DNA of 64,000 bases from Amyelois transitella. Its lineage: Eukaryota > Arthropoda > Insecta > Lepidoptera > Pyralidae. The notes below the pieces were generated by a model. It ran no database searches and was not told the origin of the DNA. It saw only the letters and a program-made list of their open reading frames with translations. The DNA is taken from the NCBI RefSeq assembly GCF_032362555.1, contig NC_083515.1, positions 2,019,001 to 2,083,000 of the forward strand, given 5' to 3'. The position numbers and the translations under genes were made by a program. This document shows positions 19,201-53,552 of this stretch, piece after piece (the stretch's first letter is position 1; each line of letters starts with the position of its first letter).

Positions 19201-22200
19201 ATCTGAGTTTGCATCTCCAACTTTTTGTCATTCTCATTCATGAAGGGCTTTTGGTTCTGCCACACCATATTCCATATCATGTTGCATGCGCTGCAGAACT
19301 CTAAAACCAACTTAGTGTTGCGCCTCTGTATCAAAAATCTCAATGTGTTGAAATAAAAAGCGTTCAAACCGAGAAAGTCCTCTTGAGTATACGTAACTCC
19401 TTCTTCTAGCGGCTTCAACTGAAATATACTGCTCAATGTTGCCCAGAATATTATCTTAGCACACATGAGTATAGTCTCTTCGGATCGCAATCTGCCGAAA
19501 AACATTCCTATATTGGTGATAATGAAGCATTCTGATATAAGACAATTCATGAGTTTGCTTGCGGTGCGTATACGATCTTTCTCACTGCAAATAGCTAGCA
19601 GCATATGGCACATCGGTTCGATCTTCTTGCAAATTTCAATTTCATTCTCATCGCTTAATATATTCAGATTGACGAGTCCGATATCTTGAATGGGGGCTAG
19701 GATAAAGGTTAAAGCTATGTTAATGTTGTTGACATCGCCAAAATCATTTAATGCCCACATGAATTTGGCAACGAATTGGTAGACTTGCCGGACGACGAAC
19801 ACGGTTCTCTTCTCGTTGACTAACATCAAAATGTCTTTCCACACTCCTGTTCTTATCAACCACATCATGCCTGAAAAATGTCTGACGAGGGAAAGGGCCA
19901 CTTCCAGAAAAGCCACCCTCAGGCTTGCGTTCATGCTTGGCGAGTGAATCTCTTTGAAATTCTTAGCGACGTTATCTCCGATTAGCGCGAACATCTTAGC
20001 GAAATGAAGTTCTTTCCTTGAAGCCAGACCAAGAAGTCTTGTTAGGAATACTTTCACTGAAATGTGGTAGTTTTCAGACCGACTTAATGAGTCAGCTATC
20101 AAGTCAGACATAAGCGGCATGGTCGCAAGCTGAGCTATTTCTGTAAAGAAATTAAAACACAATTATACGAAACAGAATGGAAACAAGTAAATCATCATAA
20201 CAGAAACATGACAAAAAGACTGTCATGTGGCCTTATTAAGTTTTTACTCATGAGAGCGTATATGTATACAACCTCCGGCTGAAAATGGTCTGGAGCCAGG
20301 CATGGCACACAGTCTAAGGGTTGCTACACACATAATCGGGCCGGCATTAATCGGCACAGCCGGGCGGTAAAATCGAATATGTGTAGATGAATGTTCGGGA
20401 AAAAAGCCGCTCGTCTTTGCCGCTCGATTACAAAGGCCGGGCAACAGCCGAATGGAACAATCGGCCAAACCGGGCGGTAAAATCGAATATATGCAGATAA
20501 TGTTCGGGAATCACAAACCGCTCGGAGCCGCACACAATCACTCGGCTCGGCAACTGCCGACTTATGCCGATCGGCTTTTGGCAACAATTTTTGTTCAGTA
20601 GTGCTAAAAATGTGGGACGAAGACGACGTGTTGTTAATTTCCGCAGCTTTTGTCGTTATTGCCGGCTCTTTACTACGAAAACCTCGAAGATTCTGGGTGC
20701 GAAGAGGCCTTCAAAATCGTGACAATGAAGATTTTCTTAATAGATTACAAGAAGATGACTGTGATGTGTTAAACTTAGAATACAGAAGCAACGGTGGATT
20801 CAAAGATTTTTTTAAAATGTCAAGTAGTGATTTTGAATTACTTCTTCAACTGATTGGACCATCAATTAACAAAAATGATACAAAATGGAGAACTGCTTTA
20901 ACTGCAAAAGAAAAACTCGGAGTTACTTTAAGATATTATGTATCTGGAGACTCATTTGGAAGTTTAATGCAGACATTCAAAATTTCACAGCAAAGTGTTT
21001 CTGAAATAGTACCTGTAGTAAGTCAAGCTTTAATCACAGAGTTGAAGAGCTTTATGCAGGTAAGAAATAATTCAAGGTGATTAATTGTTGGGTTAAAGGA
21101 ACATATTCGAAATTAGAATCTGCATTTATTTTTTTATTTATTAAAAAAAATGGAAACATTTTTTGGTATTACGAAATCAATCACAAATAAAATTAACAAA
21201 TAAAGTCAACATAAAATAACTTTAGCATCTAGCTTTTAACTAAAAAATTATCAGTCACGCGAATATTACTCCGTAATAATTTCAGGAATGGAAAGTTGCG
21301 TCGCTTAAGAACTATCATCCATCATAAATCAACATAAACACCACATTTTTAGCATGTTGCTTTGAACAAACTAAATGCACGACATTAAGCTAAAGGATCA
21401 CGTGATTGTTCTTCTGCAATAACTTTAGGAACGGAAAGCTGCGTTTCTTGAGAATTATCAATCAAAGCTGGTTTATTGTTATTTATGGAAATATATCCTT
21501 GTTTGTCAGAATCTGGCACAAAGTTATTAGTACCATCATTAGTTGCAGAGCTGGTACTTGTGTCTGGTCGATAGTAATTATATGAGTCGTATACTCCGAG
21601 TTCCCCCTCCATTAGAAGGGTATTTATTTTATTTTGCAAAGTAAGTCTTGCGTAAGGACAATAAATTTTTCTCAACTTCACAGCTACTTGGTCACCGAAC
21701 AAGGAGAATTCATCTTTGTCACTCCGATTTTTGTATACCTCCGTCATAATAGAATATGCACTCGAAATTTTTTCGTTGACATTCCCCACGTTGCGTGAAC
21801 GCTTTCGGCATTCATCTGAGGTTTCAGTGCAAGCAGTCGTACTATCTAAGCTGTCTTCAGCAGTGTAATCAATCTGAAAAAATAATAATTACTTATAAAT
21901 AAATAGTTTTCTACATTTCAGATGCCAAATACCGAAGAAAAGTGGAAAAATATAGCAAAGGGTTTTAACGATAAATGGAACTTTCCGAATTGTCTCGGTG
22001 CGTTAGATGGGAAACATGTGCGAATTGAAGCACCATTTCACAGTGGCACTGATTACTACAATTTTAAAGAATACTTTAGTATTGTGTTAATGGCACTTGT
22101 AGATTCTGATTATAATATCCTGTATGCTAATGTTGGATGCCAAGGTCGAATATCAGACGGCGGAGTTTTTTCAAATACTATATTGGACAATATAGAAACA

Positions 22201-25200
22201 TTGAATGTGCCAGAAGACAGTGAGCTTCCTGGGAGACCGTGCCGGACACCATACGTAATTATAACTGATAATGCATTTCCTTTAACAGAAAGATTTATTA
22301 AACCATACACATCTTTAGGGAAAAAGGGATCGAAAATTAGAATTTTCAATTATCGTTTGAGTCGAGCACGTCGGATGGTTGAAAGTACTTTCGGAATTTT
22401 AAGTAAAGTGTATGGGTGCTTTCGAAGACCGTTCAAATTACAACCTAGCAAAGTAACAAAGGTTGTGATGGCATTATTACATCTACACAATTTTCTCCGA
22501 AGAAATGATGAATCGAGGCATTTATACGAATACTACGCGTTTCAAGGTGATAGAAGAAATGCCACAAATGACGTGGGAATAAACGTAGGAGAGGCTGAAG
22601 AAACTAACGCTGAAAATGCAAATATTGAACCAATAATGCTGTACAATTTTTCGCCCGGTGAAATTGTCAGGGATGAATTTGCTGAGTATTTCTGCTCGCA
22701 TCAAGGAAAAGTTCCTTGGCAAAATAAGTATTAAAATTTATTAATATGTACTAAAATCAGTGTAGCTAGCTAGATTTGTGTTGATAATTAAATAAATATG
22801 TTGTAGTATAGATTTTAGTTTTTTATTTACTACTAACTAGCAACCCGGCCCGGCTTCGCACGGGGATTTCTTACAATTATGTTTTGTATGAAAAAACTTT
22901 CGAGAATAAACTGTTTGAATATAATGTAAACTGCAATTAATTTCGTTGAATAAAACAAATACAAATGCTAACTTTGTTTTATACTATGTAGTCTAGGTAC
23001 ACTAATCTACACTAATATTATAAAGAGGGAAACTTTCTTTGTTTGTTTGGTTGTAATGAATAGGCTCAAAAACTACTGGACTTATTTTGATGAAATTTGA
23101 AAGATAGACTAAACCTTTAGGAGTAACATAGGCAATTTAAAAAAAATCCCAGGAACAAACATTTTAATAACATAGCAATCGACCGGGGCTTCGGTTGCGT
23201 TAAATTTCCTTTATTTTAACGTAATGCTGCACTGAAAACTATGTTGGCCGTCGTATTTGTAAGTGGCAACAAAACATATTGATTTTCTGGAGATCCTACT
23301 CGAGAAAGAGCAACATATAATTGCCCATGCGAAAAGCACTCCTTTCTGAGGTCGATGCCAACAATCGAAAATGTTTGTCTCTGGGATTTATTTATAGTGA
23401 GGGCAAATGAGACCTTTACAGGAAACTGTAACCTTTCAAAGTATATACTTAGGTAAATCCGTCGGTATCATTGGGATCCCTATCGGTAATGTAACTATTG
23501 GATTTTTGCATGTTAAGCCGATTTTAATTAGAAGTACCGGTTTAAAAAAATTACATAAATATACACCCTCAATAAAAAATTTATTTAATTCGAAAACGCA
23601 ATCATTCACTTTTAATTTTTTTAATAGCGCCATCTGTCGTTCCATACTATAAACTGGCAAAATTTCAAATTTTAATAAAAATTTTTGCATGTTAAGCCGA
23701 TTTTAATTAGAAGTACCGGTTTAAAAAAATTACATAGAAATACACCCTCAATAAAAAAAAATATTTAATTCGAAAACGCAATCATTCAAATTTAATTTTT
23801 TTAACAGTGCCATCTGTCGTTCCATACTATAAACTGGCAAAATTTCAAATTTTAATAAAAAAATTTTGCATGTTAAGCCGATTTTAAATAGAAGTACCGG
23901 TTTAAAAAAATAACATAAAAATACACCTTTAATAAAAAAAAATATTTAATTCGAAAACGCAATTATTCACATTTTAATTTTTTTAATAGCGCCCTCTGTC
24001 GTTCCATACTATAAACGGGCAAAATTTCAAATTTTAATAAAAATTAATCAAAATGTCAATGAATATAAGAAATATTTTCTAAAAATCAATAAAAATAAAT
24101 AAAATGAAAAAAAAAAAACTTACACACGGGTACCACGGATCGAACCATCGACATCGACATCAACTATATGACCCTTGGCATTTACCACTGAGCTATTGAA
24201 TGATACTTACAGGTGGCGAAATTTTGAATAGGATTCTTATAAATTTTTCTTTTCAACCTCATTTGGTCTTTTCTTAAAGTCAAATTTAAAAAACCTATTT
24301 TTTATTGCATAACATTAATAACATAAGCTACTGTCCAAATTTCGCTTTTATAGCTTCTATGGTTTAGGCTGGGCATTGATTAGTAAAAAATCATCGGTCC
24401 GCGCGCAGTTTCACCCGCGTGGACTACAAACAATGCCCAGCAGTGGGATAAAAAGTAGCCTATGTTACTCCTGAAGGTTAAGTCTATCTCTGTGCCAAAT
24501 TTCATTCAAATCGGTCCAGTAGTTTTTGAGTTTATTCGTTACAAACAAAAAAACAAAAAAACAAATCTTTCCTCTTTATAATATTAGTTTGGACTAGCTT
24601 CCCGCCCCGTGTCTTCGCCCGCACTTTATTAGATTTTCAACTAAGTAAATCGGTTTAGCGGCTTTGACGTGAAAAGGTAACAGACAGACAGATACTTTCG
24701 CAAGGATAAGGGTTACATGGATGGGATGGATAAGGAGAATGGATATTATCAGTTAATCTAATCTATAACACAGATACACTTAACATAGACAGAAAAGGCC
24801 ATTTATAATTGTGTAGACAACTTACCATTTGCGAATCCATAGTCTTGCGAGGTTTATTTCTGGATGATAAAAATAATAAAGATTTGTAGGCGAACCATTT
24901 CGAAGTAAATGATTCATCGGCCCCAGATCCACTCTTTTTGCTGTCTTGTTCTTTCTTTTTTTCCCTTAAAAAATGACTTTGGAGGTTTTTAATTTTTCTC
25001 TCAACTTCAACTTTTTCGACTTCAAACTTTGCTGCAATTTCTACTAAGGCATCATGTCTTTTGATTTTATTTTTATAGAATTCGTCTTTTGAATCCCATA
25101 ACAACGGGTAAGACCGATAGCACTCGATAAATTGGATTGTTTTTTCCTGCGACCACTCCATTTTACGTGTGTATACTACGACAAGCATGTACAAAATGAC

Positions 25201-26759
25201 CACAAACATTCAGAGACGACGCCGACGCGTGACGCCCGAATGAAAACCGAATTGTGCCGATTGAACCCGAATGAACTACGTATATACCCGATCGGCACAA
25301 GCCGAATGAAACCGAATGTTGTAGTAGTAGTTGCGAGTCGGCTTTTTCGTTCCACAAATACCGTTCGGCAGTTGCCGAATCGAATGATGCGTTTACTCGA
25401 ATGAACTACCCGATCGGCACAAGCCGAATAAAGCCGAACAAGTGCAGTGATTACTTCGGGTCGGCTTTGTTGATCGACAAATGCTGCCGAACCGACAGTG
25501 CCGACCCGCCTATGTGTGTAGCAACCCTAACAGAAGATTGACTTTTAACTATAGAGGAAATAACGTAGGAAATATAGTGGTTATGTTCAATCATGTCAGT
25601 GTTTCTAGCATACGAATTAAGATTAAGTAACCAATCATCATTAGTATAATAGGTTGAAGCTGTTAGCTACAAAGAATACAAAAAGTATTGATCAGGGAAG
25701 CAAGCTCAGTCATAGGGGCTTTTCACAAACCTTGACACAGCAGTTAAACAAGGCCATACAGGTTAAAGACTGTTGGCTTTGTCCAACCGTAAGTGATACA
25801 TATAAGATTAAATGTATAACAACGCATATGTTATATTCATTCTCTTCTTTAGAGGAAGAGAAATAGTATGGCCTATAAACATTATTTTATAACCCTTCTA
25901 GTCCAAGAGCTATTATATTAAAAAGAAAAAAGGATGTGGATGCGCAGGGAAGCGTAAAGATAAGACAGGTTTGAAGCTGTCTACGTAGTATAGCATGTGC
26001 GACGCCGTTTTTATCGTGTGAAAATGAAAAATTGTATGCTATAACCATTTTATGTTACTTATAAGAGGTTTCTTTACTTGTACTTTATTTTTTGTAAATT
26101 TATTTATATTATTATTTATTCATGACCCACTCTGCCCATCACTACCTACGCCACAGCGTACATAACAAGCATTCTCAAGTAGTTTCTATGATGCATAGTG
26201 TGCATTGACAAGGTTGGAAAAAAAAGTAACTCTTCCCTGCAAGTGGGTTTAAAATATACAACGGAAGATAAAACTCATAGAGAACATTCCTAAGAATGCT
26301 GATATGCATATTTACACAAGGTGTGGGCAATGTGATAACAGTTTATTTTGAGAGCATTGCTTGAGCATACTAATTATCAGTGTAAGATTCTTCCAACACA
26401 AGACCTTTTGACCTATATAAATCCAATTTTAAGTCATTTAGACTTAGAACCAATTTTAAGTCATTTAGTCTTAGAATTGGATTTATGTAGGTCAAAATAT
26501 TTTTAGGAGTTCAAAAAATTTATATTAGTTATCAAATATTTTTAAAATGGACAATATAATTGTATGTTTATATGAATAATGATTATAATATAACAATGAA
26601 TAATGATAGTAATTATTATTTACCTGGATCAGATCTATCCAAAAGTTTGTTGATAAAAGCGTCGGCATAGTAGTTGTTCATCACATAATTGGGAGTCTCA
26701 AGTTTCTCAAATAACAACTTTATTTTCTTAAGAGTTTGACAATATTTCTGAACTTCCAT
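16300..26759 (-). CDS. HEAT-like repeat protein, probable BRAT1 homologue
   Basis: Five exons on the minus strand: 26759-26624, 20140-18714, 18316-18112, 17745-17570 and 17178-16300; 940 codons plus stop. All junction phases match (1, 0, 1, 0). Exon 1 begins [20 protein letters not shown]. The protein is almost all alpha-helical with HEAT-like units ([55 protein letters not shown]), an acidic loop ([16 protein letters not shown]), and the C-terminus NSLDCY. Helical-repeat architecture, length and the DCY tail suggest BRAT1, the protein that binds INTS11 of the Integrator complex and was first linked to ATM activation; its extreme C-terminus is reported to reach the INTS11 active site (recalled, not checked). 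No catalytic motifs. Intron 1 (6.5 kb) hosts a complete Harbinger transposon; intron 4 carries a family A copy. The gene model is strong, the name moderate; another HEAT-repeat protein is possible. Confidence 0.8.
17211..17437 (+). mobile_element. family A short retroposon, 5'-truncated, with target duplication
   Basis: In intron 4 of the BRAT1-like gene, opposite strand. The head is missing; the TATG tail is present. Flanking direct repeat TAATATTGAAT (about 17200-17210 and 17438-17448). Confidence 0.75.
20610..22734 (+). CDS. PIF/Harbinger DDE transposase
   Basis: Two exons, 20610-21059 (150 codons) and 21922-22734 (270 codons with stop), joined in phase 0 by a GTAAGA donor and TTTCAG acceptor. 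Exon 1 holds the N-terminal part ([57 protein letters not shown]). Exon 2 holds the catalytic domain: first Asp in [10 protein letters not shown], second in [10 protein letters not shown], Glu in [11 protein letters not shown], so the triad is complete. It cuts and pastes the element; the MADF partner usually assists DNA binding or nuclear entry. No frameshift or stop. The ATG at 20610 is preferred over the GTG nine bases upstream. The intron contains the antisense last exon of the partner gene. Confidence 0.93.
21385..25161 (-). CDS. Harbinger-encoded MADF/Myb-like DNA-binding protein
   Basis: Two exons: 25161-24826 (112 codons) and 21873-21385 (162 codons plus stop), phase 0. Exon 1 opens [20 protein letters not shown] with [20 protein letters not shown] following, the tryptophan-spaced MADF (Myb/SANT-like) fold, then a lysine-rich linker. 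Exon 2 contains [17 protein letters not shown], a BESS-like interaction motif common in MADF proteins, and a polar tail. In Harbinger elements this second protein binds DNA and helps the transposase. The 2.95-kb intron contains the antisense transposase exon 2 and the nested Helitron sequence. An in-frame ATG at 25209 could extend the N-terminus by 16 hydrophobic residues, but MEWSQ is the typical MADF start. Confidence 0.85.
23250..23510 (-). pseudogene. Helitron Rep-helicase C-terminus, remnant
   Basis: The minus strand reads [12 protein letters not shown], a stop, then [40 protein letters not shown] and [12 protein letters not shown]: the last motifs of the PIF1-like helicase domain of Helitrons. 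Everything upstream is lost. Confidence 0.8.
23508..24045. repeat. three tandem copies of a ~180-bp unit
   Basis: Unit starts GCATGTTAAGCCGATTTTAA at 23508, 23687 and 23868 (periods 179 and 181). Copies differ by a few percent, mostly in A/T run lengths. The array abuts the upstream edge of the helicase remnant. Confidence 0.9.
24120..24205 (-). repeat. tRNA-like sequence
   Basis: The minus strand reads AATAGCTCAGTGGTAAATGC (A-box-like) and, about 35 bases on, GATGGTTCGATCC (B-box-like). The T-arm pairs poorly, so it is more likely a SINE head or decayed tRNA copy than a working tRNA gene. Confidence 0.4.
25531..26404. other. intron 1 of the BRAT1-like gene, right of the transposon
   Basis: AT-rich. 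A partial piece of the GC-rich palindromic MITE is recognisable near 25990-26015 (GTGCGACGCCGTTTTTATCG). Nothing else supported. Confidence 0.5.
26405..26496. repeat. short palindromic repeat
   Basis: Arms TTTTGACCTATATAAATCC and its near complement at 26471-26496; the centre repeats CCAATTTTAAGTCATTTAG twice. Possibly a MITE remnant. Confidence 0.65.
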
Positions 26760-53310: not shown

Positions 53311-53552
53311 GGCCTCTGTGGCGCAGCGGTAGTACGCTTGTCTGCGACACCAGAGGGCCCGGGTTCGAATCCCGGTCAGGGAATGATGAGAATTTTTTTT
53401 TTTCTGATTGGCCTGGGTCTTGGATGTTTATCTATATACATAAGTATTTATTATTAAATATAGTATCGTTGAGTTAGTATCTCGTAACACAAGTCTACTC
53501 ACTCGTATCGTAACACGAGGCTAACTCATTCTGTATAATTTGTCCCGTATAT
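53311..53552 (+). mobile_element. family C tRNA-derived SINE
   Basis: A box TGGCGCAGCGG at 53319-53329 and B box GGTTCGAATCC at 53362-53372, then GGCCTGGGTCTTGGATG and CTGTATAATTTGTCCCGTAT. Lies just beyond the VPS18 stop codon, in antisense. Confidence 0.85.

Follow-up and report, generated by a model that had tools for sequence, protein, structure and literature searches.

In the PIF/Harbinger transposons of zebrafish and rice, a MADF/Myb protein contacts subterminal DNA and imports the transposase, which in turn cleaves at the terminal inverted repeats (TIRs) (PMC9710019). Related groups carry other genes: the second gene of ISL2EU encodes a YqaJ exonuclease, and Spy elements mostly contain a single gene (PMC9179366). 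Harbinger-Snek of sea kraits, for which horizontal entry followed by spread has been inferred, makes up 8-12% of the genome (PMC8437027). The element studied here occupies exactly 5,210 bp (positions 20318-25527, as the initial annotation had placed it) of a 64,000-nucleotide stretch of the Amyelois transitella genome, hereafter the window (C11:2019001-2083000 in a 327-Mb assembly of 33 contigs). It shares with PIF/Harbinger elements such as zebrafish Harbinger3_DR and insect PIF a DDE_Tnp_4 transposase, a MADF partner, short TIRs, 3-bp TNA duplications and the presence of two genes, and differs from them in that its genes, by the splice-site model, are interlocked on opposite strands (PMC9710019). 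Membership of ISL2EU or Spy was rejected, the second gene being of the MADF type (PMC9179366). The element is an ordinary PIF/Harbinger in its parts, with every defining feature tested (DDE_Tnp_4, MADF second gene, TIRs, 3-bp TNA duplication and mobility) being present; what stands out is a very young burst without detected relics, together with the interlocked gene pair.

A genome search in which the best 40 of 2,760 candidates were scored gave 13 full-length copies on 10 contigs, the window copy included, each matching at 100% along 5,210 bp. Compared as exact strings with the window copy, the other 12 revealed zero differences, and the exact 17-mer of the ends occurred 26 times in the genome, that is, two per copy. 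The 25-base flanks differed at each of the 13 sites, and 11 of the 13 copies were bordered by exact 3-bp TNA target-site duplications (TSDs; TAA in five, TTA in four, TGA in one and TCA in one); the target duplication typical of the superfamily is TWA, and the rule seen at the insertion sites of this element is TNA. The copy on C23 has an empty counterpart in the Harbinger island of C30 (see below), where a single TTA stands between 627 and 54 identical flanking bases; no empty sites for the other 12 insertions were present in the sequence compared. Distinct flanks, own TSDs and the empty site, taken together, indicate independent insertions and not segmental duplication. At C9:9153024-9163922, two oppositely oriented copies are separated by 479 bp, which suggests local hopping.

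The initial annotation had called the element recently mobile or still so, to be doubted if no second copy existed, if copies differed by an excess of amino-acid-changing substitutions or if either end was misassembled. The first doubt is ruled out by the 13 copies, and zero differences in 13 x 5,210 bases leave no amino-acid change for the second; distinct flanks, 11 of 13 exact duplications and one empty site argue against the third. Recent mobility is therefore well supported, and it is plausible from the sequence that the element still moves. At 2.9e-9 mutations per site and generation, a moth-like rate, the lack of any change in 13 copies limits the age of the burst under a star tree to about 15,000 generations (95% upper bound); the weakest, pairwise bound lies at about 99,000 generations.

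Older remnants were sought with separate queries. For the transposase region (20560-22760) all 21 candidates were scored, 13 of them matching at 100% and the next best at 75% over 91 bp; for the core of a nested insert (23140-24430) all 34 were scored, again with 13 at 100%, the next best reaching 86% over 75 bp. Neither miniature inverted-repeat transposable elements (MITEs) nor solo ends with the exact focal ends were found in the genome beyond the 26 ends already counted. At up to two mismatches, the 17-mer gave 56 further matches vs. 44 for a reversed control pattern. The likeness to Harbinger-Snek concerns superfamily and history, with entry into a lineage by inferred horizontal transfer and then spread, whereas Snek has many solo-ORF (open reading frame) and short variants and the element described here is known as 13 complete identical copies without a further exact-end copy (PMC8437027). 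As a separate observation, an inverted pair of GGGTTGCTATACATATA, 461 bp end to end, was found at C25:2597051-2597511 and may represent a MITE belonging to a related family.

The 13 identical copies and the lack of detected older remnants point to a very recent spread, and the absence of close matches to the insert core elsewhere in the genome favours horizontal arrival. We consider it very likely that an autonomous PIF/Harbinger element amplified very recently to 13 copies, probably after entering horizontally shortly before; recent arrival is the simplest account, with horizontal transfer as its probable route. Several points weigh against this reading. One Helitron-end piece of the insert, 115-155 bp long, recurs at 27 other scored places in the genome (92-97% identity), so that the insert does have some local relatives. 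A one-base TSD mismatch occurs in two of the 13 copies (ATA and TTA on C20, TCA and TAA on C19), although in elements unchanged over 5,210 bp such mismatches may date from the insertion itself and not reflect ageing. The element's outer parts (20318-20559, 22761-23139 and 24431-25527) were covered only in larger queries, with the best 40 of 2,760 or 2,764 candidates scored, and short decayed pieces of them could be missed. Horizontal transfer is without a donor among the viral and prokaryote contigs scanned: transposase exon 2 gave 3 and 24 pattern matches there, respectively, none of which was confirmed, and no other insect genomes were searched. All the evidence is DNA of one assembly and one individual.

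The main rival to recent arrival is vertical reactivation, in which one survivor of an old resident family was re-amplified, its other members having been lost, with no horizontal transfer involved. Harbingers are indeed resident in this genome. When the transposase was used as tblastn query and the best 100 of 491 candidates were scored, 26 rows corresponded to the two exons of each of the 13 focal copies and 74 to other Harbingers; seven equal-score groups of 5-9 rows were apparent, five without a stop in the matched stretch and two with one stop. The match of the 115-155-bp insert piece to local repeats at 92-97% points the same way. However, the searches revealed neither degenerate remains of the transposase region or insert core, whole or fragmentary, nor any additional exact end, and the best of the other transposases reached 43-48% protein identity, up to 52% over a 200-residue part; reactivation is thus unlikely, though far from negligible. 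Much less credible is an assembly artefact, by which consensus building or polishing homogenised diverged copies or contigs were duplicated. The use of a single assembly leaves room for it, as do the round sizes of 3 of the 10 copy-bearing contigs (7450000, 11365000 and 12012500), a hint of heavy scaffolding edits, but flanks differ in 13 of 13 copies, 11 of 13 have their own exact TSD, and on C30 two copies of another Harbinger family (family A, see below) keep their differences (99.87% over 758 bp and 99.53% over 849 bp), with other repeats there being 94-98% alike. That the element is not self-sufficient and was moved by proteins of another Harbinger family is highly improbable even in a genome with many such families, most of them with open frames, since both own proteins are open in all 13 identical copies, the two other elements whose ends were found carry different TIRs (AGGTCATAGCT... 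and AGCGGTCTACA...), and the focal TIR at up to two mismatches stays near control level outside its own copies.

If the burst was indeed so recent, the 13 identical copies without remnants catch a transposon invasion near its start, before same-end derivatives are seen, and offer a means of testing both invasion models and the trap model of PIWI-interacting RNAs (piRNAs).

Proteins of the element and of the host gene around it were examined by Pfam profile search. The transposase comprises 420 aa from two exons with GT/AG sites and has no internal stop. Exon 2 matched DDE_Tnp_4 (E 1.9e-24; 86.5 bits vs. a cut-off of 24.8), and its triad D179, D266 and E304 (D29, D116 and E154 of the exon-2 row) was invariant in 7 of 7 aligned Harbinger transposases; no sequence relative of exon 2 was found in the PDB at E up to 1. 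In tblastn, the exon-2 alignment of each focal copy showed three stops; it starts at query residue 138 and so takes in 12 residues of the intron, whereas the exons contain zero stops. The partner has 274 aa from two minus-strand exons (25161-24826 and 21873-21385) and a MADF_DNA_bdg match (E 1.5e-16); the part encoded by its second exon, without Pfam match, we take by eye to be BESS-like. The left end reads GGGTTGCTACACACATA and the right end is its reverse complement (17/17), with imperfect pairing further in. The complete triad, intact MADF partner, absence of stops, perfect 17-bp inverted repeats and flanking TAA duplications reported in the initial annotation were therefore all borne out. 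Subterminal repeats such as ATCGGCACA are present and are putative MADF/Myb targets. By analogy with the zebrafish and rice elements, the MADF/Myb protein would carry the transposase to the nucleus and bind subterminal DNA, and the transposase would cut at the TIRs.

Along the plus strand, transposase exon 1 is followed by MADF exon 2 (minus), then by transposase exon 2, the nested insert and finally MADF exon 1 (minus). The genes are interlocked by the splice-site model, each intron containing an exon of the other gene; the coding exons of both do not overlap, and the GT/AG borders are in phase in each gene. Judging from these splice sites, the two genes would be transcribed toward each other and spliced from each other's introns, which would yield complementary precursor RNAs. 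With such a layout a simple internal deletion would hardly remove one gene without damaging the other, and single-gene deletion derivatives would be unlikely.

The layout was compared with that in 26 kb of other Harbinger-rich sequence. The same exon order appeared in families A and B on C30, their transposase exons and MADF exon 1 being located by tblastn and MADF exon 2 by eye from open frames; a tblastn with the window MADF exon 2 did not find exon 2 of families A and B, and retrieved only that of a non-interlocked element (L041 6145-9464). The transposase intron of family A lies at the same place and has its own in-phase GT/AG. In family C (L043/L003) and in L041 169-5671, MADF exon 2 likewise stands between transposase exons 1 and 2, and MADF exon 1 was not located in either. 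It is improbable, in our view, that the exons are not joined as modelled, so that the partner would be the MADF exon only (148-aa ORF) and the genes would not be interlocked. The splice model rests on sequence, MADF exon 2 was identified by eye in the other families, and in the complete element L041 6145-9464 (37-bp TIR, TAA) the transposase lacks an intron and the MADF gene is simply convergent to it; against this stand the in-phase GT/AG sites in both genes, the family A intron at the same place with in-phase borders of its own and the recurrence of the four-exon order in families A and B. Interlocking, if true, gives a concrete, testable answer to how a two-gene transposon retains both genes. 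The layout was not described in the literature consulted, nor in the titles and abstracts retrieved on Harbinger and on MADF with antisense or nested genes, but could still be in print. A 591-aa open frame on the minus strand (L041 1391-3163), with no Pfam match at E up to 0.01, was also noted inside the 5,503-bp Harbinger L041 169-5671 (32-bp TIR, TTA); it is possibly a third gene or a nested element.

By eye, the nested insert shows TC...CTAG ends and what remains of a helicase C terminus, which we take to mark it as Helitron-like. The initial annotation had reported Helitron debris between the two genes; Helitron-like material is present, and its position by the splice-site model is inside the MADF intron, where it would be tolerated because it is intronic. 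All 13 copies carry the insert, which was therefore already present when the burst began, and local junk landed in one copy was ruled out on the same ground. Coordinates of all these features are collected in Table 1.

Table 1. Features of the transposon, its host intron and the Harbinger islands (window positions unless a contig is given).
Feature	Position	Strand	Remark
Left TSD, TAA	20315..20317	.	flank read
Left 17-bp TIR	20318..20334	+	17/17 vs. right end
Right 17-bp TIR	25511..25527	-	reverse complement of left end
Right TSD, TAA	25528..25530	.	flank read
Transposase exon 1	20610..21059	+	150 aa; weak CENP-B_N/HTH_Tnp_4 similarity, below Pfam cut-offs
Transposase intron, GTAAGA...TTTCAG	21060..21921	+	predicted; holds MADF exon 2 on opposite strand
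Transposase exon 2	21922..22734	+	270 aa, DDE_Tnp_4; D179, D266, E304
MADF exon 1	24826..25161	-	112 aa, MADF domain
MADF intron, GTAAGT...TTTCAG	21874..24825	-	predicted; holds transposase exon 2 and nested insert
MADF exon 2	21385..21873	-	162 aa and stop; no Pfam match in this part
Nested Helitron-like insert	about 22837..24593	-	adjoins second CTAG-type end at 24594-24597
Unit of ~180 bp, about three head-to-tail copies	23502..24043	.	self-comparison rows L003/L003, converted to window coordinates
Host-gene intron carrying the element	20141..26623	-	GT/AG read from sequence
Harbinger islands	C7:2.82-2.87, C19:1.79-2.05, C20:1.82-1.89 and 7.29-7.36 Mb
Harbinger islands (rest)	C23:4.80-4.84, C27:2.95-3.00, C30:1.81-1.90 Mb

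Non-focal Harbingers were unevenly distributed. When three or more non-focal hits linked at 150 kb are taken to form an island (limits chosen after the tables were viewed), seven islands, dense in many Harbinger families, cover 0.19% of the genome and hold 36 of the 74 hits. Five of the seven have all their hits on one strand, those on C19 and C27 being mixed, and 32 of 36 hits lie on the majority strand. Islands contain two of the 13 focal copies, those on C19 and C23 (P 7e-4 at 25 kb padding). The transposase of each runs opposite to that of the nearest residents, although the focal copy on C19 has the same strand as other residents of its island. As island hits share identical DNA between islands, they are partly non-independent.

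The remaining transposable elements (TEs) analysed behaved differently from one another. Among piggyBac hits (best 116 of 535 candidates scored), 8 of 116 lie in islands vs. 0.33 expected (25 kb padding), all eight opposite to the Harbinger strand; with wider padding, 10 were opposite and 2 the same at 100 kb, and 11 and 5, respectively, at 250 kb. Within 60 kb, 17 of 21 piggyBacs were opposite to the nearest Harbinger, with the C19 island split in two by strand post hoc. BEL/Pao (best 150 of 395 candidates scored) was not enriched inside islands (1 of 150 vs. 0.44 expected, 25 kb padding), whereas at 150 kb padding there were 7 vs. 1.24 expected, five of these together on C27. With the idea of the islands as general TE traps, piggyBac agrees and BEL/Pao does not.

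The Harbinger islands may be candidate piRNA clusters. The flamenco locus is a uni-strand piRNA cluster. Clusters of this kind have been documented in Trichoplusia ni, and the islands resemble them in being TE-dense, with one superfamily mostly on a single strand; they differ in the mostly opposite strands of Harbinger and piggyBac and in the lack of BEL/Pao enrichment, and are known here from DNA alone (PMC5844692). A joint reading, which we consider improbable, is that interlocked antisense pairs are a common Harbinger design in this genome, tying both genes against the loss of one; that, with an essential protein encoded on each strand, an insertion in a one-way piRNA-type island would be antisense to one gene in either orientation; and that island residents orient their MADF gene, not the transposase, with the piggyBac strand, silencing acting via the MADF transcript. 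The opposite orientation of Harbinger and piggyBac, if the islands are truly piRNA clusters, could tell which transcript the host silences. In a separate observation, several piggyBac families were present with open frames and numerous copies of equal score (31 rows at 299.3 bits and 12 at 296.2), which suggests other recent bursts in this genome.

The element had been placed in an intron of a conserved gene. The intron was recovered, with the host exon 26759-26624 (minus) predicted to join in frame to the exon starting at 20140 through GT/AG sites. The term conserved is sustained solely by a match of the 474-aa host ORF to PDB chain 8uic_T 'FI02071p' (E 5.5e-8); this ORF had no Pfam match at E up to 1, and its match in NCBIfam was below threshold. 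In the window as a whole, ARAGORN predicted no tRNA within the nested insert and a single one, at 53313.

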